DNA of 36,704 nucleotides from Flavobacteriales bacterium (lineage in GTDB: Bacteria; Bacteroidota; Bacteroidia; Flavobacteriales_D; Crocinitomicaceae), in contig JADFAL010000115.1 of assembly GCA_015665275.1 (NCBI GenBank), positions 1 to 36,704 of the forward strand, written 5' to 3'. Of the stretch, positions 1-16,578 are shown one piece after another. Position 1 is the first letter of the stretch; every line of letters begins with the position of its first letter. Made by a program: the position numbers and the translations under genes. The notes beneath the pieces were generated by a model. It saw nothing but the letters and a program-made list of their open reading frames with translations. It was not told the origin of the DNA and made no database searches.

Positions 1-396
1 GAAGCCATTTTAGCGTACAATCAAAACGTGCAACGCATAACTTCAAACGATGAATTTATTCAAACCGTGGAATACGACACACCTGCGAATCGAACGACGG
101 AACGCATGTACTTCCGGGTTTGGTTGGAAAAGAAATCGAAACAGCCACTGGAAAATGTTTCGTTGGTAATTCATGCGACTGATAGTGATTCGGACTTCAA
201 TCACTACCATGCTATTCCTCTCTACAACGATCGTTTCGCCGGAATCAACAACTGGACGTCGTTATCGTTTAGCGGGCAAATTCCAGACCATTTCAACGAT
301 TTTGAGAAAGTTAAAATCTACATCTGGAATCAAGGAAAAGAAACCTTTGAATTGCGAAACATTCACATTTTTATAGACACGTACAAATCATTATAA
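1..396 (+). CDS. C-terminal part of an unidentified protein (cut by window edge)
   Basis: The reading frame is open to the first base of the window, so this is the last 131 codons of a longer gene; the GTG at 28 is probably an internal Val. The visible part is soluble, rich in aromatic and beta-branched residues, and looks like an all-beta domain (pattern FRVWLEKKS...VSLVIHATDSD...KVKIYIWNQGKETFELRNIHIFID), as found at the C-terminus of some Bacteroidota membrane or carbohydrate-related proteins. I do not recognise the family. It ends two bases before the next ATG, so it is very probably co-transcribed with the ExbD-like lipoprotein. Confidence 0.8.
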   Translation, partial: EAILAYNQNVQRITSNDEFIQTVEYDTPANRTTERMYFRVWLEKKSKQPLENVSLVIHATDSDSDFNHYHAIPLYNDRFAGINNWTSLSFSGQIPDHFNDFEKVKIYIWNQGKETFELRNIHIFIDTYKSL

Positions 397-398
397 CT

Positions 399-1277
399 AT
401 GAAGTTTCACCATTTGTTGGCTGCGACATTGTTTACTTTACTTAGTTCTTGTGGGGGAGAATCTGAAAAGGAGGAAACCGCCAACAACGAGAAGAATGAT
501 TTTATCGCTCCGGTAACGGAAGACTACCAGCATATCATTGCGGAATCTACGAATGATTATCCGCTTATTTTACGATCGGAGATGGACATTGAAATACTTG
601 ATCGTAACATAATGGAAATAGTGATTGGTCTTGACGGATCATTTACCATCGAAGGAGATAGCGCAGATTGGGATGATTTGGACGAAGAAGTTCGTATGTT
701 TTTTGAGATCAATCGAAGACTGAGCGCCGATCAATATTCAAAGTTGAAAAATGATAAATACTACAAAGGAGTTTCTTATCCATTCTTTACTCGTTTTACA
801 CGGGAATCATATCAAAGTTATATCAATCAGCTCACTAAAATGGCGGAAACGGATGCGAAAGCTGGTCTTTATCTTCAACGTCATGTTAGGCGTTTCAAAG
901 CGTTCGATGCGGTAGAAGATCAAGAATTACCATACATTAGCCCATTGGCCGTTATAAGATACGTCCATCCTGATGATTATCCACAAGAAAAACTTCTAGA
1001 ATTCGAAACAAAGTTGGCTCAAATCATTTATTCGCTTAGAGGAGATTTAGCCATTGATAAATTCAAAACAAATTACAGGAACATTAGGGCTAGAGTTGGT
1101 GCGGATGGAGATGCTAGAAGGCAATTGTTGTACTTACAAGAAATGTATCCGGCTTATTTATTGAGACTAAAAGAATCCGAAACGGAAGTTCTAGAACCTG
1201 CATTGGAGCCAATGCCTGTTCCAACTCCGGCACCCTCAGAAGATATCGAAGAAGAACCTTTGGTGCCTGTTCGTTAA
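399..1277 (+). CDS. Lipoprotein with an ExbD-like periplasmic domain
   Basis: This 292-residue protein has an SPII signal peptide with lipobox LSSC (Cys18), followed by an acidic tether. The body has no membrane helix. Residues about 69-250 match the periplasmic part of the large ExbD encoded at 14426-15217: RNIMEI against RNIFEI, FFEINRRLSADQ against FYRINRSLSGEQ, YYKGVSYPFFTR against SYKGYEFPFYSR, SPLAVIRY against HPQAHIRV, and LRGDLAIDKF against LRDEAAMKYF, in the same order and similar spacing. The ExbD transmembrane helix with its essential Asp is missing, so it cannot itself be a stator subunit. The tail is Pro/Glu-rich (about 268-292). It is joined to the gene upstream by a two-base gap and shares a TTAA stop overlap with convergent hemJ. 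Homology to ExbD is read from the sequence; the role (partner, decoy or regulator of the ExbB/D complex) is unknown. Confidence 0.85.
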   Translation: MKFHHLLAATLFTLLSSCGGESEKEETANNEKNDFIAPVTEDYQHIIAESTNDYPLILRSEMDIEILDRNIMEIVIGLDGSFTIEGDSADWDDLDEEVRMFFEINRRLSADQYSKLKNDKYYKGVSYPFFTRFTRESYQSYINQLTKMAETDAKAGLYLQRHVRRFKAFDAVEDQELPYISPLAVIRYVHPDDYPQEKLLEFETKLAQIIYSLRGDLAIDKFKTNYRNIRARVGADGDARRQLLYLQEMYPAYLLRLKESETEVLEPALEPMPVPTPAPSEDIEEEPLVPVR

Positions 1278-1831
1278 GATTTGGATCGAACGCGTTTATA
1301 CATCTTAATCAAAATCATTAGACCTATTGCAACGGCAAAAAAGCCAACTGTTCCTTTGATCCAATTCATGGAATCTTTCAGCATCACAATGAAAACGATA
1401 GCTACGAGTGCCAATGTCGCTACTTCGTTCCAGAGGCGCAGCATGTTCGATTTCCATGCGTACTTGCCTTTTTTCAGATCAAACATGATTTTCTGGCAAA
1501 CAAAATGGTAAACCAACAAAAGTCCCACAAAAGCCAATTTGATGTGCATCCAACGACCAGCTGGGGATTCAAAGAAATAGTCCCATCGTTCAAAGAGCAT
1601 CCAGAATCCAAAAACGAAGGTGAGAATCATGGCCGGTGTTGTGATAATCCACCACAAACGTTTCTCCATAATTTCAAACTGATCCGAAAGAATTTTTCTT
1701 GCCGTTTCCTCCTTTTGCTGGGCTTCCGTATGGTAAATGAACAAACGAACGATATAGAAAAGCCCTGCAAACCAGCTCACCATGAAGATAATGTGCAACG
1801 CTTTAATAGTCTGATAGGATTCGTATTCCAT
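1274..1831 (-). CDS. hemJ: HemJ-type protoporphyrinogen IX oxidase
   Basis: The 185-residue membrane protein has about five hydrophobic helices and starts with the family signature: ALHIIFMVSWFAGLFYIVRL near the N-terminus, then IYHTEA, a Trp-rich second segment (WWIITTPAMILTFVFGFW) and a third containing WMHIKL. This is the HemJ (UPF0093) family, which oxidises protoporphyrinogen IX to protoporphyrin IX in the inner membrane during haem synthesis; the His of ALHIIF and the Arg/Lys residues are the conserved ones. Length is close to normal for the family. The 3' end overlaps the convergent lipoprotein gene by four bases (both stop in TTAA). A promoter box lies only four bases before the ATG. 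No other haem gene is next to it. Confidence 0.88.
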   Translation of the reverse strand: MEYESYQTIKALHIIFMVSWFAGLFYIVRLFIYHTEAQQKEETARKILSDQFEIMEKRLWWIITTPAMILTFVFGFWMLFERWDYFFESPAGRWMHIKLAFVGLLLVYHFVCQKIMFDLKKGKYAWKSNMLRLWNEVATLALVAIVFIVMLKDSMNWIKGTVGFFAVAIGLMILIKMYKRVRSKS

Positions 1832-2034: not shown

Positions 2035-3747
2035 ATGAGTGCACTAGAACTTTCAGATCAGGAAATCCAGAGACGTGAAACTTTGGACAAACTGAGAGCA
2101 TTGGGAATCAATCCGTATCCTGCGGCTTTGTACCCCGTAACACATAAATCTGCCGACATCAAGAACAACTTCAAGGAAAACGAAGAGGTTGTAATTGCTG
2201 GGCGATTGATGCGAAGAAAGGTTCAGGGTAAAGCTTCTTTTGGTGAATTACAAGATTCCGAAGGGCGTATCCAAGTGTATTTCAATCGAGATGAAATTTG
2301 CCCAGGTGAGGACAAAACAATGTACAATGAAGTATTCAAGCGTCTTTTGGACCTTGGAGATTTTGTTGGTGTTGAAGGAACGGTATTCAAAACGCAAACG
2401 GGTGAAATAACTGTGGCGGTGAAAGAATTCAAGCTTTTGAGTAAAGCTTTGAAACCGCTTCCATTACCCAAAACGGATGCTGAAGGAAACGTACATGATG
2501 CCTTCACAGATCCTGAATTACGGTACCGTCAGCGTTATGTTGATTTGACCGTGAATCCGAATGTGAAGGAGATCTTCATGAAGCGTACGAAGTTGTTTAC
2601 AGCAATGCGAAACTTCTTCAACGATGCTGGATATATGGAGGTTGAAACTCCAGTATTGCAGTCCATTGCTGGTGGAGCAGCCGCACGACCATTTGAGACG
2701 CATCACAACGCCTTAGACATTCCATTGTACATGCGAATTGCTAACGAATTGCACCTGAAACGACTTATCGTAGGTGGATTTGAAGGTGTTTACGAATTCT
2801 CCAAAAACTTCCGAAACGAAGGAATGGATCGCACGCACAATCCGGAGTTTACGGCGATGGAAATTTACGTTTCCTACAAGGATTACAACTGGATGATGGA
2901 ATTTACCGAAAGCTTGTTGGAACATTGTGCCATGGAAGTAAACGGAACTACCGAGTGTACTTTCGGGGAGCATCAAATTAACTTCAAAGCTCCGTACAAA
3001 CGTATTACTATGCGTGATTCCATTTTGGAATTCACTGGATACGATATCAATGGTAAATCAGAAGAAGAACTTTTCGCCGCATGCAAAGAAATGGGCATCG
3101 ACGTAAATGAAACCATGGGGAAAGGAAAGTTGATTGATGAAATTTTCGGTGAGAAATGTGAAGGGAATTACATCCAGCCTACATTCATCACAGATTATCC
3201 AAAAGAGATGTCACCGTTGTGTAAAGAGCACCGTGACAACCCTGAATTAACGGAAAGATTTGAGTTAATGGTTTGTGGTAAAGAGATTGCCAATGCGTAC
3301 TCTGAGTTGAACGATCCAATTGATCAACGCGAGCGATTCGAAGATCAGGTTCGCTTGGCGGAAAAAGGAGACGACGAAGCAACAGGAACTATTGATCAAG
3401 ATTTCTTGCGCGCTTTGGAATACGGAATGCCACCAACATCTGGATTGGGAATAGGAATGGATCGATTGATTATGTTCTTAACAAACAATCCAGCAATTCA
3501 AGAAGTATTGTTCTTCCCTCAGATGAAACCTGAGGTTTGGGGAGCACAAGGACCGGAATTGAACGAAAATGAGCAAATCATCTTCGATATTCTTTCGAAA
3601 GAGAAATCAATGGATCTTAACGCTTTGAAAGAAGCAGCGGGACTTTCAAACAAGCAGTGGGATAAATCCATCAAAGGATTGGCGAAACATGGATTGACGA
3701 AGGTGACGAAGACGGATGATGCTTTGATAGTTGACGTAGTTGAATAA
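2035..3747 (+). CDS. lysS: Lysyl-tRNA synthetase (class II)
   Basis: LysRS charges tRNA-Lys with lysine using ATP. I start it at the ATG at 2035 (570 residues), giving MSALELSDQEIQ; the upstream in-frame ATG at 1984 precedes the promoter box. The N-terminal OB-fold anticodon domain covers about residues 50-150 (VVIAGRLMRRK, GKASFGELQD). Class II motif 2 is FRNEGMDRTHNPEFT at about 260-274, and motif 3 is GLGIGMDRLIMF at about 469-480. After motif 3 there is an extra C-terminal segment of about 60 residues (about 511-570), Lys-rich and helix-turn-helix-like; extensions of this kind are common in Bacteroidota LysRS. The gene stands alone, with a regulatory-looking upstream region. Confidence 0.97.
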   Translation: MSALELSDQEIQRRETLDKLRALGINPYPAALYPVTHKSADIKNNFKENEEVVIAGRLMRRKVQGKASFGELQDSEGRIQVYFNRDEICPGEDKTMYNEVFKRLLDLGDFVGVEGTVFKTQTGEITVAVKEFKLLSKALKPLPLPKTDAEGNVHDAFTDPELRYRQRYVDLTVNPNVKEIFMKRTKLFTAMRNFFNDAGYMEVETPVLQSIAGGAAARPFETHHNALDIPLYMRIANELHLKRLIVGGFEGVYEFSKNFRNEGMDRTHNPEFTAMEIYVSYKDYNWMMEFTESLLEHCAMEVNGTTECTFGEHQINFKAPYKRITMRDSILEFTGYDINGKSEEELFAACKEMGIDVNETMGKGKLIDEIFGEKCEGNYIQPTFITDYPKEMSPLCKEHRDNPELTERFELMVCGKEIANAYSELNDPIDQRERFEDQVRLAEKGDDEATGTIDQDFLRALEYGMPPTSGLGIGMDRLIMFLTNNPAIQEVLFFPQMKPEVWGAQGPELNENEQIIFDILSKEKSMDLNALKEAAGLSNKQWDKSIKGLAKHGLTKVTKTDDALIVDVVE

Positions 3748-3850
3748 TCTTCATGGATAGAGGCGGGTACCGATAAATTCGTTCTACTAATCCATCATTT
3801 ACTTCATAGAATACCACAGTAAGGCAACTCGAGCACCTATGTTAGCTTAA

Positions 3851-4081
3851 ATTTTAGCAGAGTTTTCTATTTATCCCGACCCATCAAACGGATCCTTCAT
3901 CCTAGAAGTGCCTATTTCAGGAACATATAGCTTACTACATGCTCTGGGGCAGAGTTTAAATAAAGGATCATTGAAAGCAGGACAAAACATCCTATCGCCT
4001 GAACTAAATTCAGGAATATATTTCATCCAGGTGACACTGAAAAATCAAGGAACTATGCAGCAACAAATTCAACTGTACTAG
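3851..4081 (+). pseudogene. Orphan T9SS type A sorting-domain fragment
   Basis: An open stretch of 76 codons without a usable start reads as a complete T9SS C-terminal sorting domain: FSIYPDPSNGSFILEV (the YPNPSNG-type motif), then LLHALGQSL, LSPELNSGIYFIQV and a final QQQIQLY before TAG. This is the domain that sends proteins through the type IX secretion system. An in-frame TAA at 3848-3850 closes the frame, and nothing recognisable precedes it back to lysS. I read it as the surviving 3' end of a lost secreted-protein gene. The original terminator (4103-4138) is still in place directly behind it. No gene is seen in 3748-3850. Confidence 0.75.
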
Positions 4082-4102
4082 TAAATAACATAGAAAAGAG
4101 AG

Positions 4103-4138
4103 AGAAATCCGGGCATTGCTGTCCGGATTTCTTTTTTT
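4103..4138 (+). terminator. Rho-independent terminator
   Basis: The perfect ten-base stem AGAAATCCGG / CCGGATTTCT (4103-4112 and 4123-4132) has a ten-base loop and a run of T at 4132-4138. It follows the orphan sorting domain by 21 bases and would also end lysS transcripts. Confidence 0.9.
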
Positions 4139-4178
4139 GAAAATTCAACGTTTCCAAAGTATTCGGCGTTCTATCAAT

Positions 4179-4415
4179 ATGCACGCTATTCTGCCTATTT
4201 TCTTGGTTTTACTTATTTCTTTATCCTGCCAAAAAGAAGTGAAACCGGACTATCAAGGCGACTATGATCCGTATGACATTTCTTACGATTATTACTATTT
4301 AAAGGGAGTTGTAAAAGACACATTCGGCATTCTAATGAACTATGGCTACTGCAAAGCTGCTGGCGTCATTCGCTATACTATTCTTTACTACAACTGCTCT
4401 CACCTGTCCATTTGA
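4179..4415 (+). pseudogene. Truncated lipoprotein gene overlapping the next start
   Basis: From the ATG at 4179 the frame encodes a clean SPII signal peptide (MHAILPIFLVLLISLSC, lipobox LSLSC) and a Tyr/Asp-rich tether, then YYLKGVVKDTFGIL, which resembles the first strand of a carboxypeptidase-regulatory-like domain (GxVxDxxG). After about residue 50 the sequence stops looking like protein (NYGYCKAAGVIRYTILYYNC) because it is reading the signal-peptide codons of the following gene (ATG 4342) in another frame. The simplest reading is a lipoprotein gene cut by a deletion around 4330. It may still be translated as a short lipopeptide of 78 residues. Confidence 0.5.
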
Positions 4416-6366
4416 TGGCAATGAGATCAACGCTGGAACGTTAACACCTACAGCAGGATACCAAACTGTAAACACTTCCAATGGAGACTATTGGGTAATC
4501 AATGTAAACTGTGGTGATACCTACAATTTCAACTTTTGTAACAACGGAGGTACAGCAACTTGGGATACACAAATCACTATTCTTCAGACCAACGGAATCA
4601 CAGAATTGGCCTACAACGATGATAATTGTGGATTGCAATCCGATGTTTCATGGCAAGCGACTTTCACAGGGACTGTATACGTTTTGGTAACCGAATACTT
4701 TTGCAATCTCGACGGAACCTTCAACGGCACTATGGCCTATAATGTCACCTCAGGATCCATTGTCGGAAATGCTTCATTCAATCTCACAGCTAACAATTGT
4801 CTCTCAGCGTCTGCCACAATTATAGGAGACACTGGGGGTACTTTTTCATTCAATCCGGCACCGATGGATGCAGCGACAATTAATCCAACTACCGGAGCGA
4901 TTTCCAATGGAACTGCGGGCGCAACATATAACGTAGATTATACAGTTAACTGTGTTACAACAAATGAATCGGTAACATTATTGAATTCTGGGAATGCTGC
5001 CTTCGCGCTCACTGTTGTTTGTGGTGGAGCTACGGCTAACATAACTGGAGACACGGGAGGAACGTTCGTCTTTAATCCCGTTCCAACAGATGGAGCACAG
5101 ATTAACGCATCTACAGGAGCACTCACTAATGGAACGGCCGGTAATTCATATACGGTGGAATACACCATTTGTGGGGCTACAACTTCGCAATCTGTGACCG
5201 TTCTTACGAATGATTGTTGGACCTTAAATGGAAACGCTACAAATATAACAGTTGGATCAGATGATTGTATTCAGCTAACCGCGGCGGTCAATGGACAACT
5301 AGGCTGTGCATGGAGCGGTTCTCAAATCGATTTTGCAACTGATTTCAACTTGATATTGGACTACTACTTCGGAAACAACATCAATGGAGCCGATGGAAAT
5401 ACCTTTACTTTCCAACCGAGTGCTTCAACCGCATGTGGAACAGCTGGTGGTCAGCTAGGTGCCGGAGGATTGACAAACGCGCTGTCCATCGAATTTGATA
5501 CTTACGACAACGACAACCCAGCGCATATTTATGATATGGCCTGTGATCATATTGCCGTTGAAATTGATGGTGATCATCAAAACGCAGCGCCAGCCGCAGG
5601 CCCCGTTTGTGCCAAAACAAGTATGGGAAATATTGATGACGGAGGAACGTATGAAGTAATCATCGATTGGAATGCAACTACGCAAACATTGGAAGTATTC
5701 TTTGATGGCGTATCCAGATTGACGTATAACAACGACATCGTCAACAACGTATTTGGTGGGCAAAGTCTGGTATACTGGGGAGCAACCGCTGCAACTGGAG
5801 GACTCAACAATCAGCAGTATTTCTGCCCAAGTTCTGTAGTTATTCTTCCTGTTGGGCTGACCTCTTTCTCTTCGGAGTGTCTTGGAACTGAAGAAGTATT
5901 CACTTGGAAAACAAGCACGGAACAAAACGCAAGTCATTTTATGTTGGAGTATACGTATGACGGATATATCTTCTATCCAGAAACAAGCGTGCAAGCTATC
6001 GGGAACTCCAATACGGAACAAACGTATCAGGTGCTCGTTACCACGATAGATCCGAACACTCGCTATTACCGATTGAAAGCGGTGGACCTAAATGGAAGCT
6101 TTGAAACATCCGATTTGATTTCAGGGAAGGCATGCATGAATGCTTCGTTATTGCAATCGGTGTATCAGGACGGAAATATCGTTCACGTAAAAATGAATCA
6201 ACCAGCAACTGTGCAATTGGTAAACAATATGGGGCAAATTCTTCTTACAGATGCATCTGATGATTCCTTGAGCTTTGAAACTTCTCAATTGGCGGCCGGA
6301 ATGTATCAACTAGTTTTGACAGGAGCAGACGGAACAAAAGAGGTGGAATCGATTATGGTGCGGTAG
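4342..6366 (+). CDS. T9SS-exported surface protein with lectin-like domain
   Basis: This 674-residue secreted protein has a signal peptide (about 1-21), a pre-peptidase-C-like beta domain (about 22-138), two tandem homologous modules (141-216 and 217-289, sharing GDTGGTF.FNP and NGTAG..Y.V.YT), an L-type lectin-like domain (about 291-495, with LSIEFDTYDNDN and DHIAVEIDGDH as likely sugar/Ca-binding parts), a module starting LPVGLTSFSSECLGTEEVF and containing RYYRLKAVDLNG (about 502-590), and a C-terminal T9SS type A sorting domain (about 600-674: VQLVNNMGQILL, LAAGMYQLVL). It should cross the outer membrane by the type IX system and be anchored or released at the surface. Binding of glycans is inference from the lectin fold. 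Cysteines are frequent, fitting an extracellular protein. Its start overlaps the truncated lipoprotein, so its native promoter may have been lost. Confidence 0.85.
   Translation: MATAKLLASFAILFFTTTALTCPFDGNEINAGTLTPTAGYQTVNTSNGDYWVINVNCGDTYNFNFCNNGGTATWDTQITILQTNGITELAYNDDNCGLQSDVSWQATFTGTVYVLVTEYFCNLDGTFNGTMAYNVTSGSIVGNASFNLTANNCLSASATIIGDTGGTFSFNPAPMDAATINPTTGAISNGTAGATYNVDYTVNCVTTNESVTLLNSGNAAFALTVVCGGATANITGDTGGTFVFNPVPTDGAQINASTGALTNGTAGNSYTVEYTICGATTSQSVTVLTNDCWTLNGNATNITVGSDDCIQLTAAVNGQLGCAWSGSQIDFATDFNLILDYYFGNNINGADGNTFTFQPSASTACGTAGGQLGAGGLTNALSIEFDTYDNDNPAHIYDMACDHIAVEIDGDHQNAAPAAGPVCAKTSMGNIDDGGTYEVIIDWNATTQTLEVFFDGVSRLTYNNDIVNNVFGGQSLVYWGATAATGGLNNQQYFCPSSVVILPVGLTSFSSECLGTEEVFTWKTSTEQNASHFMLEYTYDGYIFYPETSVQAIGNSNTEQTYQVLVTTIDPNTRYYRLKAVDLNGSFETSDLISGKACMNASLLQSVYQDGNIVHVKMNQPATVQLVNNMGQILLTDASDDSLSFETSQLAAGMYQLVLTGADGTKEVESIMVR
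4762..5208 (+). repeat. Two tandem modules inside the surface protein
   Basis: The two modules of 73-76 codons (4762-4989 and 4990-5208) are clearly homologous in protein and still recognisable in DNA (GGAGACAC.GG.GG, AATGGAAC.GC.GG). Divergence is too high for a recent duplication. Confidence 0.7.
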
Positions 6367-6479
6367 GTGAAATTATCGGATATATGATTCCTTCTGTTGT
6401 GCCTTGGCATTGATGACCAGAACAAATAGAAAAAGCTAAAGTGCTTTTCATTAAAAGACCGTGAAATTAAGGCATTTAC

Positions 6480-7472
6480 TTAATGCGACTCACGCTTCTG
6501 AAAATCACATTCCAAAATGAAGTGTTCTCCCGGGGATTTCGACTTCGTCAATCGTTCATACATACGATCAACTGTTTGCAAACCAATTTGAACAATCGGT
6601 TGACGCAATGCAGAAATTGGCGGATTCATGTATTGGAATGCTTCGCTGTCATCAAACGAAATCAAACGAACGTCTTCTGGAATTCGAACACCTGCCTTAT
6701 TCAAAGCCGATAGCGCAATCAAAGTACATTTATTATTCAATGCAATAAACGAATCCGTTCCGGCATCTAACTCTTGCTGAATCAACTTATCGACCTCTGC
6801 TTGATCTTCAGGCAAGTCAACGTAATTATAGTCAACTCCTCCCGCCTCGCACGCCTCTTTCGTACCCTCGATGCGTTCCTGAATCGTAGAAACATTCTCT
6901 GGATATGGCACCAAAGCAGACAGACGCTTTGGCTTCTTGGTAAACGAATTGATCAACTTTTCAGATTCTGCGCGGTTATCTACCCCAACAAAATCGGCAT
7001 TTTCATCTCCCGGACGATCTGTAAAAACTACCGGAATGTGTGTTTCCAAAAGAATTGGAATTAACTGCTTGATGTTATTACTCGGAGCGATGATCATACC
7101 ATCAATAGAACGTTGAATCAACTCACGCATCAATGCCTTCTCTAACTCTACATCATCGTTCGTATTTACAATGAATGTATTGTATCCCGTATCGTATAAT
7201 TTTTCTTGAATCGTCTTACAAATCTCAGCATAGAATGGGTTGGAAATATCCGGTAATACCAATCCGATTGTCTTGGTTTCGCCTTGACGCAGACTCTTCG
7301 CAAAGAAGTTAGGAACGTATGACAATTCCTTTGCCTTTTCTTTGATCAATCGCTGCTTTTCCTTGCTGATATTGAATTGATCCCCCTTACCATTCAGGAC
7401 AAAGGATACCGTTGCTTTGGAGACATTCAGCGCCTTCGCAATATCGTTGAGGGAGGTTCTTTTGGTTTTCAT
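6480..7472 (-). CDS. LacI-family transcriptional regulator
   Basis: The 330-residue protein has the LacI layout. The N-terminal helix-turn-helix with hinge runs over residues about 5-60 (SLNDIAKALNVSKATVSFVL, then ELSYVPNFFAKSLRQGETKTIGLVLPD), followed by a periplasmic-binding-protein-like sensor domain (about 62-330). A sugar or related ligand is expected to control binding to a palindromic operator. There is no sugar transporter or glycosidase beside it, so the target is not local and the ligand cannot be named. The gene stands alone between the surface protein (convergent) and the M48 gene. I see no clear TAnnTTTG box upstream. Confidence 0.93.
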   Translation of the reverse strand: MKTKRTSLNDIAKALNVSKATVSFVLNGKGDQFNISKEKQRLIKEKAKELSYVPNFFAKSLRQGETKTIGLVLPDISNPFYAEICKTIQEKLYDTGYNTFIVNTNDDVELEKALMRELIQRSIDGMIIAPSNNIKQLIPILLETHIPVVFTDRPGDENADFVGVDNRAESEKLINSFTKKPKRLSALVPYPENVSTIQERIEGTKEACEAGGVDYNYVDLPEDQAEVDKLIQQELDAGTDSFIALNNKCTLIALSALNKAGVRIPEDVRLISFDDSEAFQYMNPPISALRQPIVQIGLQTVDRMYERLTKSKSPGEHFILECDFQKRESH

Positions 7473-13886: not shown

Positions 13887-14399
13887 TTAAAATGCTGACT
13901 TATCCTCTACAGCGTATGCTATTTTCAAGGCGTCAATATCTTGTAGTGCGTCTCGGATATCAAAGATTAGAATCGTTGGCACACCTTCGTCGGCTTTGAT
14001 ACAAGTGATCACATTAGAGATCGGCTCGTTCATATTCGACGGTTTCGTGTTCATTTTGTCTAGCTTCCAATCTGCAACACTGTTCGTAGAATAAAGATCT
14101 CCTGGTTGTGGTTGTGCTACGTTATCAAGGAACAAAGCATGCCCCAACTTGAAATCAGCTGCTCGTTTCTTGTTACGCGGCTCCCCAATATAAAGGAAAT
14201 CAATCTCAGAGCGCTGTTTGTACGGTGTTAAATCCGTTGCACTTACTCCTTGCGGTCTTTGTACATCTACCGTTGGATCTGATTCTTTTGTAGTTGTTGC
14301 TACCATGAAGAAGAACAACAACATAAATACGATATCCGGAAGGGACGAGGTATTTACCCCTGGTGCTCCTTTCTTATTTTCTTTTCTAAACTTTGACAT
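13887..14399 (-). CDS. exbD: ExbD/TolR-type protein (second, short)
   Basis: The 170-residue protein has a short cytoplasmic N-terminus and one membrane helix, SSLPDIVFMLLFFFMVATTT (18-37), with the ion-path Asp22 placed as in ExbD/TolR. The periplasmic domain (about 38-170) is compact. With ExbB it would turn the proton gradient into force on TonB-dependent receptors or a Tol-like partner. It is unlike the larger ExbD upstream apart from the helix, so the two are probably different stator subunits. It is the last gene of the operon, 26 bases after the other exbD and just before the terminator. Confidence 0.92.
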   Translation of the reverse strand: MSKFRKENKKGAPGVNTSSLPDIVFMLLFFFMVATTTKESDPTVDVQRPQGVSATDLTPYKQRSEIDFLYIGEPRNKKRAADFKLGHALFLDNVAQPQPGDLYSTNSVADWKLDKMNTKPSNMNEPISNVITCIKADEGVPTILIFDIRDALQDIDALKIAYAVEDKSAF

Positions 14400-14425
14400 C
14401 TCTAAATGTTTTTGTTTTAGGAAGA

Positions 14426-15217
14426 TTAACCTTTCGGTTTCACCTCAATAATGCTCTCTGGGAACAATACGTCGATGGCTCTGATCTTCTTACCGTCACC
14501 TTTTTTGTCTTCCTTATCCTGATCCAGACGCTTACTCATTTTAGCATACGATTCTCCGAAATATTTCATGGCTGCTTCATCGCGCAATTCAATCAATGCT
14601 TCTTGAATTTCTGAGTGAATTTTCGCGAAGAGTTTGTACTCCGTTTCCTGCTGTACTACCACACGGATGTGCGCTTGCGGGTGAATCTCTACCAACTCTT
14701 TTTCCTTAAGCATTTTGATTGCCTGTTCTTTTTTCTGCCACTTTGTAAGTAGATCTAAATAGAACACAACAAAATCTTCCTCTTCATCTGCTTCGGCACG
14801 CTCCAAGTCCTTTTCATTCTTATCGATCTCTTTGACAATTTGGTCCAAGGTCACGCGACTGTAGAATGGGAATTCATATCCCTTGTAACTCTCATTCTGA
14901 ATTAGACTTTTCGTTTGCTCTCCACTCAAGCTTCGGTTAATTCGGTAGAACTCCAAAACGCGATCGGAAATGTCGTCAGGATTTTCAATAATCTCTCCAC
15001 GAATCATCAAACGGTTCGCGGCATTCGCTCGAATTTCGAAAATGTTACGGTTTTCAATGTCTGGTGGAGGTTGCGGAATATCAATCTTCTTCGGGATATA
15101 GCGAATGTATGCCGTATCCTTTTCCATCGTTGTTGTTACAAGGAAGAAAATTAGAAGAAGGAAGGCGATGTCCGCCATCGATCCTGCGTTAATTTCCGGT
15201 ATATCTCTCTTCGCCAT
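14426..15217 (-). CDS. exbD: ExbD/TolR-type protein (large periplasmic domain)
   Basis: This 263-residue protein is about twice the usual ExbD length. The helix GSMADIAFLLLIFFLVTTTM (12-31) carries the ion-path Asp16. The periplasmic part has a Pro-rich linker (IPQPPPDI, 47-54), a first beta unit (RNIFEI, 57-62), an inserted acidic helical stretch (about 128-178, rich in Glu/Lys), the strand HPQAHIRVVV, a helix ending LRDEAAMKYF, and the C-terminal VLFPESIIEVKP. This same periplasmic domain is seen without the helix in the lipoprotein at 399-1277. It starts six bases after the 4-TM gene stops. Confidence 0.93.
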   Translation of the reverse strand: MAKRDIPEINAGSMADIAFLLLIFFLVTTTMEKDTAYIRYIPKKIDIPQPPPDIENRNIFEIRANAANRLMIRGEIIENPDDISDRVLEFYRINRSLSGEQTKSLIQNESYKGYEFPFYSRVTLDQIVKEIDKNEKDLERAEADEEEDFVVFYLDLLTKWQKKEQAIKMLKEKELVEIHPQAHIRVVVQQETEYKLFAKIHSEIQEALIELRDEAAMKYFGESYAKMSKRLDQDKEDKKGDGKKIRAIDVLFPESIIEVKPKG

Positions 15218-15223
15218 AAATGT

Positions 15224-15703
15224 TTATTTTCTGTATTTCCCAAGAAGGAAAGGTCCAAGAATCGCCAAAAGAATTCCCAAAACGATTCCGATGATCACTA
15301 CCCACAAACCTGCTGTCGTTGCATCCAACGTAGCATCGCTTACATGGTAGTTATCTGTTAATACAAGGCTTTCGTTTGTATCAGATGTTCCCATCAATCG
15401 AAGAATCCAGTACAATACAAATGCAGCAACAATTCCAATGATTGATAATGCTGTTTTCTTTGTGTTGGTGATCAATTGGAACAAGAAGAACAAAAGAACT
15501 CCAACTATGGCAGCAACGATAATGATCACTGTATAGTTAATCGCCAATCCCATTTGCGGTGAATCCGCATATTGGTCCTTCACTACTTCCGTAGCTTCTG
15601 ACCCCGGGCTGGTTGAAAGCACCCAAATACATGCGAACGCTCCGATGGCGCCGATCACGTATTTGATGGCGTTCATTGCCAAGTCAAATTTTTTAGTATC
15701 CAT
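15224..15703 (-). CDS. Four-helix membrane protein of the exb operon
   Basis: The 159-residue protein has four predicted membrane segments (about 15-32, 56-77, 85-102 and 131-154). The loop between helices 1 and 2 is acidic (EATEVVKDQYADSPQ), and the C-terminus is basic (LLGKYRK). I do not recognise a named family. Its place between exbB and two exbD genes, with gaps of 38 and 6 bases, points to a role as an accessory subunit of the same motor. Such proteins are known as unnamed neighbours of ExbB/ExbD in Bacteroidota; the function is not established. Confidence 0.85.
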   Translation of the reverse strand: MDTKKFDLAMNAIKYVIGAIGAFACIWVLSTSPGSEATEVVKDQYADSPQMGLAINYTVIIIVAAIVGVLLFFLFQLITNTKKTALSIIGIVAAFVLYWILRLMGTSDTNESLVLTDNYHVSDATLDATTAGLWVVIIGIVLGILLAILGPFLLGKYRK

Positions 15704-15741: not shown

Positions 15742-16578
15742 TTAGGCGTTTGCCTTGTGCTTCAACATCATATCGATCAATGAGATTGATGCATCTTCCA
15801 TATCATTTACCAAACCGTCTACTTTAGAAACGATGTAGTTGTAGAATACTTGCAATACGATCGCTGCGATCAAACCGAATACTGTTGTCAATAGGGATAC
15901 CTGAATACCGCCTGCAACTGTAATTGGTGATACTTGACCATCTTTTACAATTTGATCGAAGGCGAAGATCATACCGATTACCGTTCCCAAGAACCCGAGC
16001 ATTGGCGCAAGAGCGATGAACAATGATAACCATGACAAGCCTTTCTCTAGAAGTCCCATCTGAACTCCACCATAAGCAACAACGGACTTCTCGACGACGT
16101 CTATACCTTCATCGGCTCGATCGAGTCCTTGGTAGAATATAGATGCAATTGGTCCACGTGTGTTACGGCAAACATCTTTCGCAGCGTCAACACCTCCATT
16201 TTTCAAAGCTGTTTCAACCTCATCCAAGAAACGTTTCGTGTTGATTGTTGAAAGGTTCAAATAAACGATACGCTCGATTGAAAGTGCCAATCCAAGAATC
16301 AAACAGATCAATACTGGTGACATCCAAACGGGATCTCCTTGAATGAATTTTTGCTTGATTGTAGCAATGATTCCCAATTCTGGCTCTTCTTTCGTTTCAT
16401 CATCCTTAGCAGTTTCTACTTGGGAAGCTGCTTCCGAAGCCGGATCTTCAGCCTGAGTTGAATCAACCACTTCTGTGCTATCCTGCCCTTCTAATTGATC
16501 TTCTTGAGCATATGTTACTCCGGTAAATCCAAATGTGATTGCCGCAGCAATGGCTAGTGAACTAATTACTTTTTTCAT
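15742..16578 (-). CDS. exbB: MotA/TolQ/ExbB proton channel family protein
   Basis: The 278-residue protein begins with a cleavable-looking signal peptide (1-24, ending VTYAQ) and an acidic low-complexity stretch (25-67) before the ExbB core. Helix 1 is WMSPVLICLILGLALSIERI (85-104). The family block ALAPMLGFLGTVIGMIFAF lies at 189-207 and TTVFGLIAAIVLQVFYN at 231-247. The core is the stator channel that passes protons with ExbD. Standard ExbB lacks the secreted acidic N-terminus, but such extensions occur in Bacteroidota. It is the first gene of the operon, with a promoter 45 bases upstream. Confidence 0.94.
   Translation of the reverse strand: MKKVISSLAIAAAITFGFTGVTYAQEDQLEGQDSTEVVDSTQAEDPASEAASQVETAKDDETKEEPELGIIATIKQKFIQGDPVWMSPVLICLILGLALSIERIVYLNLSTINTKRFLDEVETALKNGGVDAAKDVCRNTRGPIASIFYQGLDRADEGIDVVEKSVVAYGGVQMGLLEKGLSWLSLFIALAPMLGFLGTVIGMIFAFDQIVKDGQVSPITVAGGIQVSLLTTVFGLIAAIVLQVFYNYIVSKVDGLVNDMEDASISLIDMMLKHKANA

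Follow-up and report, generated by a model that had tools for sequence, protein, structure and literature searches.

What use has the periplasmic domain of ExbD when it is separated from the motor? ExbD, TolR and related proteins are known as subunits of motors, with the coupling done by the periplasmic domain. The question is raised by a gene at positions 399-1277 of a 36,704-nucleotide stretch of Flavobacteriales DNA (contig JADFAL010000115.1 of assembly GCA_015665275.1; hereafter the window, our contig C36 of a 3.64 Mb genome, G000), for which the initial annotation had proposed a lipoprotein carrying an ExbD periplasmic domain that might cap, compete with or localise the ExbB/ExbD complex. 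The comparisons below confirm the predicted lipoprotein as a copy of the ExbD periplasmic domain without the transmembrane helix and its Asp, and it is one of a recurrent set, not a single protein. Labels with G, C and L denote genomes, contigs and loci, and ExbD periplasmic domains without the motor helix are called detached.

The lipoprotein is a copy of the ExbD periplasmic domain

The protein begins with MKFHHLLAATLFTLLSSCGGES, and its signal ends in LLSSC, where a PROSITE-type pattern matched a type II signal with lipobox Cys18. ExbD1, encoded in the same window, carries GSMADIAFLLLIFFLV near its start, including D16, and scores 46.4 bits with the Pfam ExbD model (cut-off 25.4). Both sequences bear out the proposal that the membrane helix and its Asp have been replaced by a lipoprotein signal. 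The five ordered blocks described at the outset are all present, in the same order in the lipoprotein and ExbD1 (RNIMEI/RNIFEI, INRRLSADQ/INRSLSGEQ, YKGVSYPFFTR/YKGYEFPFYSR, AVIRYV/AHIRVV and LRGDLAIDKF/LRDEAAMKYF, respectively). BLASTP aligned the two proteins with 26% identity over 188 residues (E 5e-13), and a search of its own genome with the lipoprotein returned only itself and ExbD1 at E <= 10. The Smith-Waterman score of the pair was 169, against a mean of 38.7 (standard deviation 6.4) and a maximum of 79 in 2000 shuffles. Profile-profile comparison, which had been suggested as a check, gave a significant match by hhalign, at 99.1% (E 1e-18) between three orthologous lipoproteins and 18 ExbDs and at 100% (E 2e-50) between 10 detached domains and 13 ExbD domains.

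General family searches were silent on this relationship. No Pfam or NCBIfam family was found in the lipoprotein at E <= 1, and the long form of the detached domain (class I, see below) went unrecognised by Pfam in the proteins scanned. Against PDB sequences, the ExbD profile had no match at E <= 1 and the detached-domain profile had four, all unrelated and with E >= 0.22. Structure prediction of both proteins, likewise suggested at the outset, returned nearly the same order of elements, in models built from the same four sequences with each alignment including the other protein, so that their agreement is not independent evidence. The mean AlphaFold2 confidence of the lipoprotein was 69.5 for the whole chain, with ten-residue means of 90-92 for residues 71-100, 56-85 for 101-180 and 83-93 for 181-260; its short strands 131-134 and 176-179 and its last helix 259-265 were not called in the ExbD1 model.

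The lipoprotein thus shares with the ExbD/TolR family (PF02472) a homologous periplasmic domain, with the long insert of the clade's ExbD, but lacks the transmembrane helix and Asp, in whose place it has a lipoprotein signal, and bears an extra tail. It also lacks the loop and end-strand residues of ExbD, a Pfam match and a place in the exb operon. As the initial annotation had supposed, no protein of this form appeared among the papers listed by the literature searches, most subscription journals lying outside them. The predicted architecture is confirmed as an unusual arrangement of a known domain.

The gene was gained, probably in the ancestor of three genomes

We read 14 of the 30 loci returned for the gene upstream of the lipoprotein, the other 16 being mostly weaker matches. 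Two of them, in G020 (L186) and G025 (L187), have the lipoprotein gene between the upstream gene and hemJ. Four (L189, L192, L193 and L195) have an empty site with the upstream gene beside hemJ, and in the empty-site genomes (G004, G010, G014 and G031) the two open frames end 2 bases apart; the lipoprotein frame likewise ends 2 bases from hemJ in the window and in G020. In the remaining eight, hemJ is not adjacent, the neighbours differ and no lipoprotein match is present. Because the site is empty in four of the six comparable loci of other genomes, the remaining two having the lipoprotein, the gene is a lineage-specific gain. When one genome per species of GTDB 220 was searched with these orthologues, from a seed of two short patterns that is liable to miss distant relatives, two loci were found, both already known. 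Sequence comparison shows the homology, the empty site and this restriction, and the gain itself would fall in the ancestor of the clade formed by the window's genome, G020 and G025.

The ExbDs of the three carriers group with L066 (support 94/84, or 100/100 without the other detached rows), and an ExbD domain profile matched 32 of the 34 genomes sampled from the genus (Fluviicola or near), the two without a match being 72% complete. From this grouping and the near-universal presence of ExbD we infer that the direction was from ExbD to lipoprotein. Linkage of the lipoprotein gene to the exb operon was considered and rejected: the gene shares a contig with ExbD in all three genomes but lies 13 kb from the operon, on the opposite strand, in the window and about 23 kb and 24 kb away in G020 and G025.

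The lipoprotein has diverged quickly, with 47-51% identity among the three genomes, compared with 71-81% for the upstream gene, 73-91% for hemJ, 92-96% for lysS and 73-77% for ExbD1. Differences at first, second and third codon positions amount to 0.35-0.39, 0.26-0.31 and 0.62-0.65, and in all three comparisons the third position differs most and the second least, which suggests some constraint on the protein. The frame, the lipobox and the tail are intact in the three genomes.

Detached ExbD domains recur in Flavobacteriales

Detached ExbD domains, mostly in lipoproteins, occur in 10 of the 34 genomes of the genus (G000, G003, G004, G008, G014, G019, G020, G022, G025 and G028). In G014 the gene is truncated where the contig ends, G028 carries a tandem pair, and the protein of G003 has a signal without a recognised lipobox. 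Further detached domains were found in the family outside the genus (G063, G209, G078, G086, G109 and G081) and in other families of the order (G058 and G054), in a survey that was not a census, as mainly genomes with at least two profile matches were read; in one survey set all but one of the order-level proteins read were ExbDs or pieces of ExbD. A lipobox pattern matched 17 of the 23 detached proteins taken from inside and outside the genus, which are not independent and include two truncated ones, against 36 of 222 neighbouring open reading frames.

In two of the profile searches, matches with E above about 1e-3 were left out, including one on contig C6 of G019 (E 0.002). Other candidates were dropped: L125 and L127, weak matches to tetratricopeptide-like proteins; L116 and L119, weak matches at which no related open frame was seen; and L117, L123 and L124, which are ExbDs.

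We built a tree from 44 ExbD and 12 detached rows, leaving out the class II proteins described below except for the bridging L062. It places the detached rows in three or more places, requiring three changes, and the arrangement in one group occurs in 0% of 200 bootstrap trees, while only one change is forced by the starred branches. One common origin for the detached domains is disfavoured, since the one-clade tree was worse, with a borderline p of 0.0376 in the approximately unbiased (AU) test and long branches flagged; narrower pairings were not rejected (type A with L066, p 0.156; a seven-row clade with L066, p 0.127). Repeated origin of the detached domains is likely on these trees.

The genome of the window has three further detached loci, on contigs C26, C10 and C2, two of them broken. 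The C26 locus encodes the short lipoprotein L120 (1965-2414, + strand), which, like L118 on contig C2 of G020 (2024-2515, +), has about 150 residues and an ExbD-like domain; in both genomes the gene has a MORN-repeat protein on one side and a TetR-like regulator with an ABC1 kinase on the other. On C10, L175 (1444-2355, +) joins an N-terminal lipoprotein domain to an ExbD linker and a short ExbD domain and is interrupted by an in-frame TAG; its uninterrupted relative is L115 in G025. On C2 of the window's genome, L059 (9137-9691, -) is the C-terminal remnant of an L066-type ExbD lipoprotein, and its open frame also holds a piece resembling the end of the adjoining upstream gene, as if by deletion. 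Second lipoprotein copies stand in tandem at L065 (1-639 and 643-1494, -) and L064 (9337-9627, +), one cut by a contig end and one a short piece.

Two classes differ in the residues kept from ExbD

We compared 44 ExbDs with the 12 class I domains, the long-insert form to which the 399-1277 lipoprotein belongs, at 51 positions conserved in ExbD (ExbD1 numbering). N94, R212 and Y224 are kept in all 12 and P117, P253 and L175 in 10, while 15 positions are kept in at most two. The losses gather in one loop and at the end strand: T192 is kept in two domains, V259 in one, and Y194, F197, E258, P261 and K262 in none, although T192, Y194, E258 and P261 are invariant in the 44 ExbDs. The 399-1277 lipoprotein differs from ExbD at each of T192, Y194, F197, E258 and P261. 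Positions kept in at most two domains make up 7 of the 8 in the loop and end strand and 8 of the 43 elsewhere (Fisher p 0.0004, for a zone picked after the table had been seen, related sequences and a gappy loop alignment).

In the ExbD1 model, T192 and Y194 lie at the start of a helix, between strand 183-188 and helix 194-220, and E258-K262 at the C-terminal strand and end. In Escherichia coli, ExbD makes its dimer contact through the loops that connect strand 3 with helix 2, and residues 130-134 take up the TonB D-box (PMC10907165). At the dimer interface the TonB strand takes the place of N-terminal ExbD residues, and glycan chains are also bound by ExbD (PMC10771500). By our mapping onto these accounts, the lost residues would fall on the dimer contact and the TonB-binding strand.

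Class II proteins differ in this respect. The loop pattern T-x-Y/F is matched by six of seven (L115, L118, L120, L121, L126 and L177, but not L170), and most lack the long insert, which L121 has. L118 and L120 are short proteins, and the remaining members have at their N-terminus a domain that is also found by itself. L062 bridges the two classes, with a class II-type N-terminal domain and a class I domain, and L163 and L122 fall clearly in neither. L120 and L118 resemble the 399-1277 lipoprotein in having a lipobox and an ExbD-like domain but lack the insert and keep the loop motif T-E-F-G-M-F and the end R-I-I-E. L115 and its relatives are likewise motor-less, several with a lipobox, but have the extra uncharacterised N-terminal domain, and L115 retains the ExbD linker EKDTSYIRSIPKK (42% over 66 residues with ExbD1, E 8e-14). 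Since L120 (30.0 bits) and L126 pass the Pfam ExbD cut-off, which L118 fails at 21.0, databases may already label such proteins ExbD/TolR. At L176-L185 an uncharacterised domain stands alone in lipoprotein-like proteins of about 190-230 residues from several Flavobacteriales, or is fused to an ExbD domain (L177, for example).

Neighbouring genes and tails

BLASTP found no ExbB, motor-ExbD or TonB homologue in the 19 loci that surround detached genes or remnants. The queries were ExbB, ExbD1 and ExbD2 of the window and the three TonBs of its genome, and the targets were 20 loci of 4-21 kb each, L119 included; only detached domains were found, with no TonB among the targets as a positive control. 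Pfam searches of 20 neighbour proteins at 11 loci gave mixed housekeeping and envelope genes.

Eight of 18 detached proteins have at least three Pro and at least three acidic residues in the last 25, compared with 7 of 201 genes in the neighbourhood (p 2e-6 by Fisher's test, on non-independent rows) and 15 of 95 ExbD records counted with duplicates. Close to the detached ExbD lipoprotein of L064, an unrelated secreted protein (14003-14791, -) ends PPIPPPPPPMRVEED, and because it has such a tail these tails may be a wider envelope feature of the genus. By reading, no motif was common to the tails and the TonB linkers of the window's genome. The idea that the tail copies a TonB D-box was kept only as an idea, for want of a shared motif and because some ExbDs pass the same criterion and the unrelated secreted protein has a comparable tail.

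What the detached domain may do

We favour the following explanation. The periplasmic domain of the lineage's long-insert ExbD would have been copied without its motor helix behind a lipoprotein signal and inserted, in the ancestor of the three-genome clade, between hemJ and a gene for a membrane protein. The product would be exported, receive a lipid at Cys18 and remain in the envelope, displaying the ExbD-fold domain on a linker of roughly 45 residues, with a flexible Pro/acid-rich tail. There the domain would keep a peptide strand or some component of the wall at the membrane, independently of the motor, and would now bind something other than ExbD and TonB. That the lipoprotein is such a repurposed, fast-evolving envelope binding module has, in our estimate, an even chance; a subunit of ExbB/ExbD or a direct dock for TonB would fit less well, because class I keeps N94, R212 and Y224 and loses most loop and end-strand residues.

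Several results weigh against this explanation. Residues were also lost outside the loop and end strand (A64, P80, V188 and E206 kept in none of 12; S84, R95, E203 and A247 in one each), and general divergence may explain part of the loss. The mapping onto the E. coli surfaces follows the order of elements and not a superposition, across a gappy loop. Type A did not group within its own clade's ExbDs in the tree, although such a placement was not rejected (AU-test p 0.406). Foldseek gave no significant PDB match for either model: the best ExbD chain for the lipoprotein, 8pek, ranked third (E 0.86, probability 0.21), and 8pek, 8p9r, 8vgc and 5by4 appeared among the best 50 of 133 matches with E 0.86-5 and probability <= 0.28. 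With the ExbD1 model as a control, 8pek ranked first at E 0.24, so the test has little power even with a true ExbD of this form. Finally, the detached ExbD-domain lipoprotein of L113 in G209 (3717-4610, +) stands beside a convergent TonB-dependent receptor gene (4904-7162, -). We do not read this receptor, found at one locus, or the PorP/SprF protein that adjoins L060, as a pattern, and our estimate is unchanged.

A rather unlikely alternative is a wall anchor, an envelope lipoprotein tying a membrane to the wall independently of Ton, with the peptidoglycan binding reported for ExbD/TolR. A lipid anchor joined to a wall-binding domain is the plan of Pal, which uses an OmpA-like domain. Pal and other lipoproteins tethering the outer membrane to the wall resemble the present protein in general plan (a lipid anchor and a small periplasmic domain). 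PMC12204202 reports no Bacteroidetes pal in the database searched there, which counts for a wall anchor. The retention of N94, R212 and Y224 in all class I domains may be read the same way, but an accessory, fast-evolving gene is unlike a structural tether.

A partner or competitor acting in trans on Ton, whose domain would form a pair with ExbD or bind the TonB strand in its place and so cap or localise the complex, is unlikely for the 399-1277 protein. The clear homology with ExbD, the receptor gene adjoining L113, the loop motif kept in class II and the linker kept in L115 favour it, and the recurrent Pro/acid-rich tails recall the Pro-flanked TonB D-box strand described in PMC10907165. Such tails are shared with some ExbDs and with the unrelated secreted protein, however, and the 12 long-type domains, the present one among them, have lost most of the conserved positions of the loop and end strand. 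Together with the 13 kb to the exb operon and the absence, by BLASTP, of ExbB, motor-ExbD or TonB homologues from the 19 loci, this weakens the mechanism of the initial annotation, apart from the receptor beside L113; its other suggestion, a separate periplasmic module with the same fold, fits better. As an account of this protein the mechanism is less probable than as one of its class II relatives, which, having the ExbD loop motif, are the better candidates for acting on Ton. A broader version seems doubtful to us: Flavobacteriales would repeatedly free the periplasmic half of ExbD as mostly lipid-anchored, trans-acting docks or decoys of TonB or ExbD, adding to motor and transporter a third kind of Ton partner, some with a TonB-like Pro-flanked strand in the tail, with class II (L115, L118/L120) the active competitor and class I a diverged form.

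It is improbable that the gene is a functionless, drifting by-product of gene copying. Its fast divergence, its patchy distribution and the broken or partial copies on C2 and C10 of the same genome would suit drift, but the frame, lipobox and tail have stayed intact at 47-51% identity, with the ordered codon-position differences in all three comparisons. A chance likeness of unrelated helical proteins, for which the identity of only 26% and the blindness of Pfam to the lipoprotein might be cited, is refuted by the BLASTP E of 5e-13, the score far beyond 2000 shuffles and the 99.1% hhalign match, and can be dismissed.

Whichever partner an envelope binding module of this kind would hold, motor-less and mostly lipid-anchored ExbD domains in one aquatic bacterial group are natural separation-of-function material, which bears on the parts of the domain that serve dimer formation, TonB binding and wall binding and on its use without a motor. 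Should class II bind TonB or ExbD, it would regulate how nutrients are taken up through the outer membrane.

Gene layout of the window

Table 1. Features of the lipoprotein locus and of the exb operon in the window
Feature	Position	Strand	Remarks
Upstream gene, C-terminal end	1..396	+	Stops 2 bases 5' of the lipoprotein ATG
Lipoprotein gene	399..1277	+	292 residues: Cys18 signal, linker, ExbD-like domain, Pro/acid-rich tail
Lipoprotein signal through lipobox Cys, MKFHHLLAATLFTLLSSC	399..452	+	Stands where ExbD has its transmembrane helix; PROSITE-form lipobox pattern
ExbD-like periplasmic domain	603..1172	+	About residues 69-258
Helical insert, residues 110-171	726..911	+	Also found in the clade's ExbD
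Loop residues 191-195, between strand 185-190 and helix 196-222	969..983	+	Invariant T-x-Y of ExbD absent here
Low-confidence Pro/acid-rich C-terminal tail, residues 265-292	1191..1274	+	Without counterpart in ExbD1
hemJ-like gene (UPF0093), convergent, right flank of the insertion site	1274..1831	-	
Second ExbD (ExbD2)	13887..14399	-	170 residues
ExbD1	14426..15217	-	263 residues; transmembrane helix with D16, then long periplasmic domain (DNA about 14429-15061)
Hydrophobic membrane protein between ExbB and ExbD1	15224..15703	-	Pfam DUF4064 below cut-off
ExbB / MotA-TolQ-ExbB proton channel	15742..16578	-	

The exb row runs in the order ExbB, hydrophobic membrane protein, ExbD1 and ExbD2 (Table 1). 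The upstream gene encodes a hydrophobic protein of about 583 residues in relatives, without a Pfam family. In the window's genome it is split between positions 1-396 of the window and positions 2-1369 of contig C46, so C46 and C36 probably adjoin in the genome.
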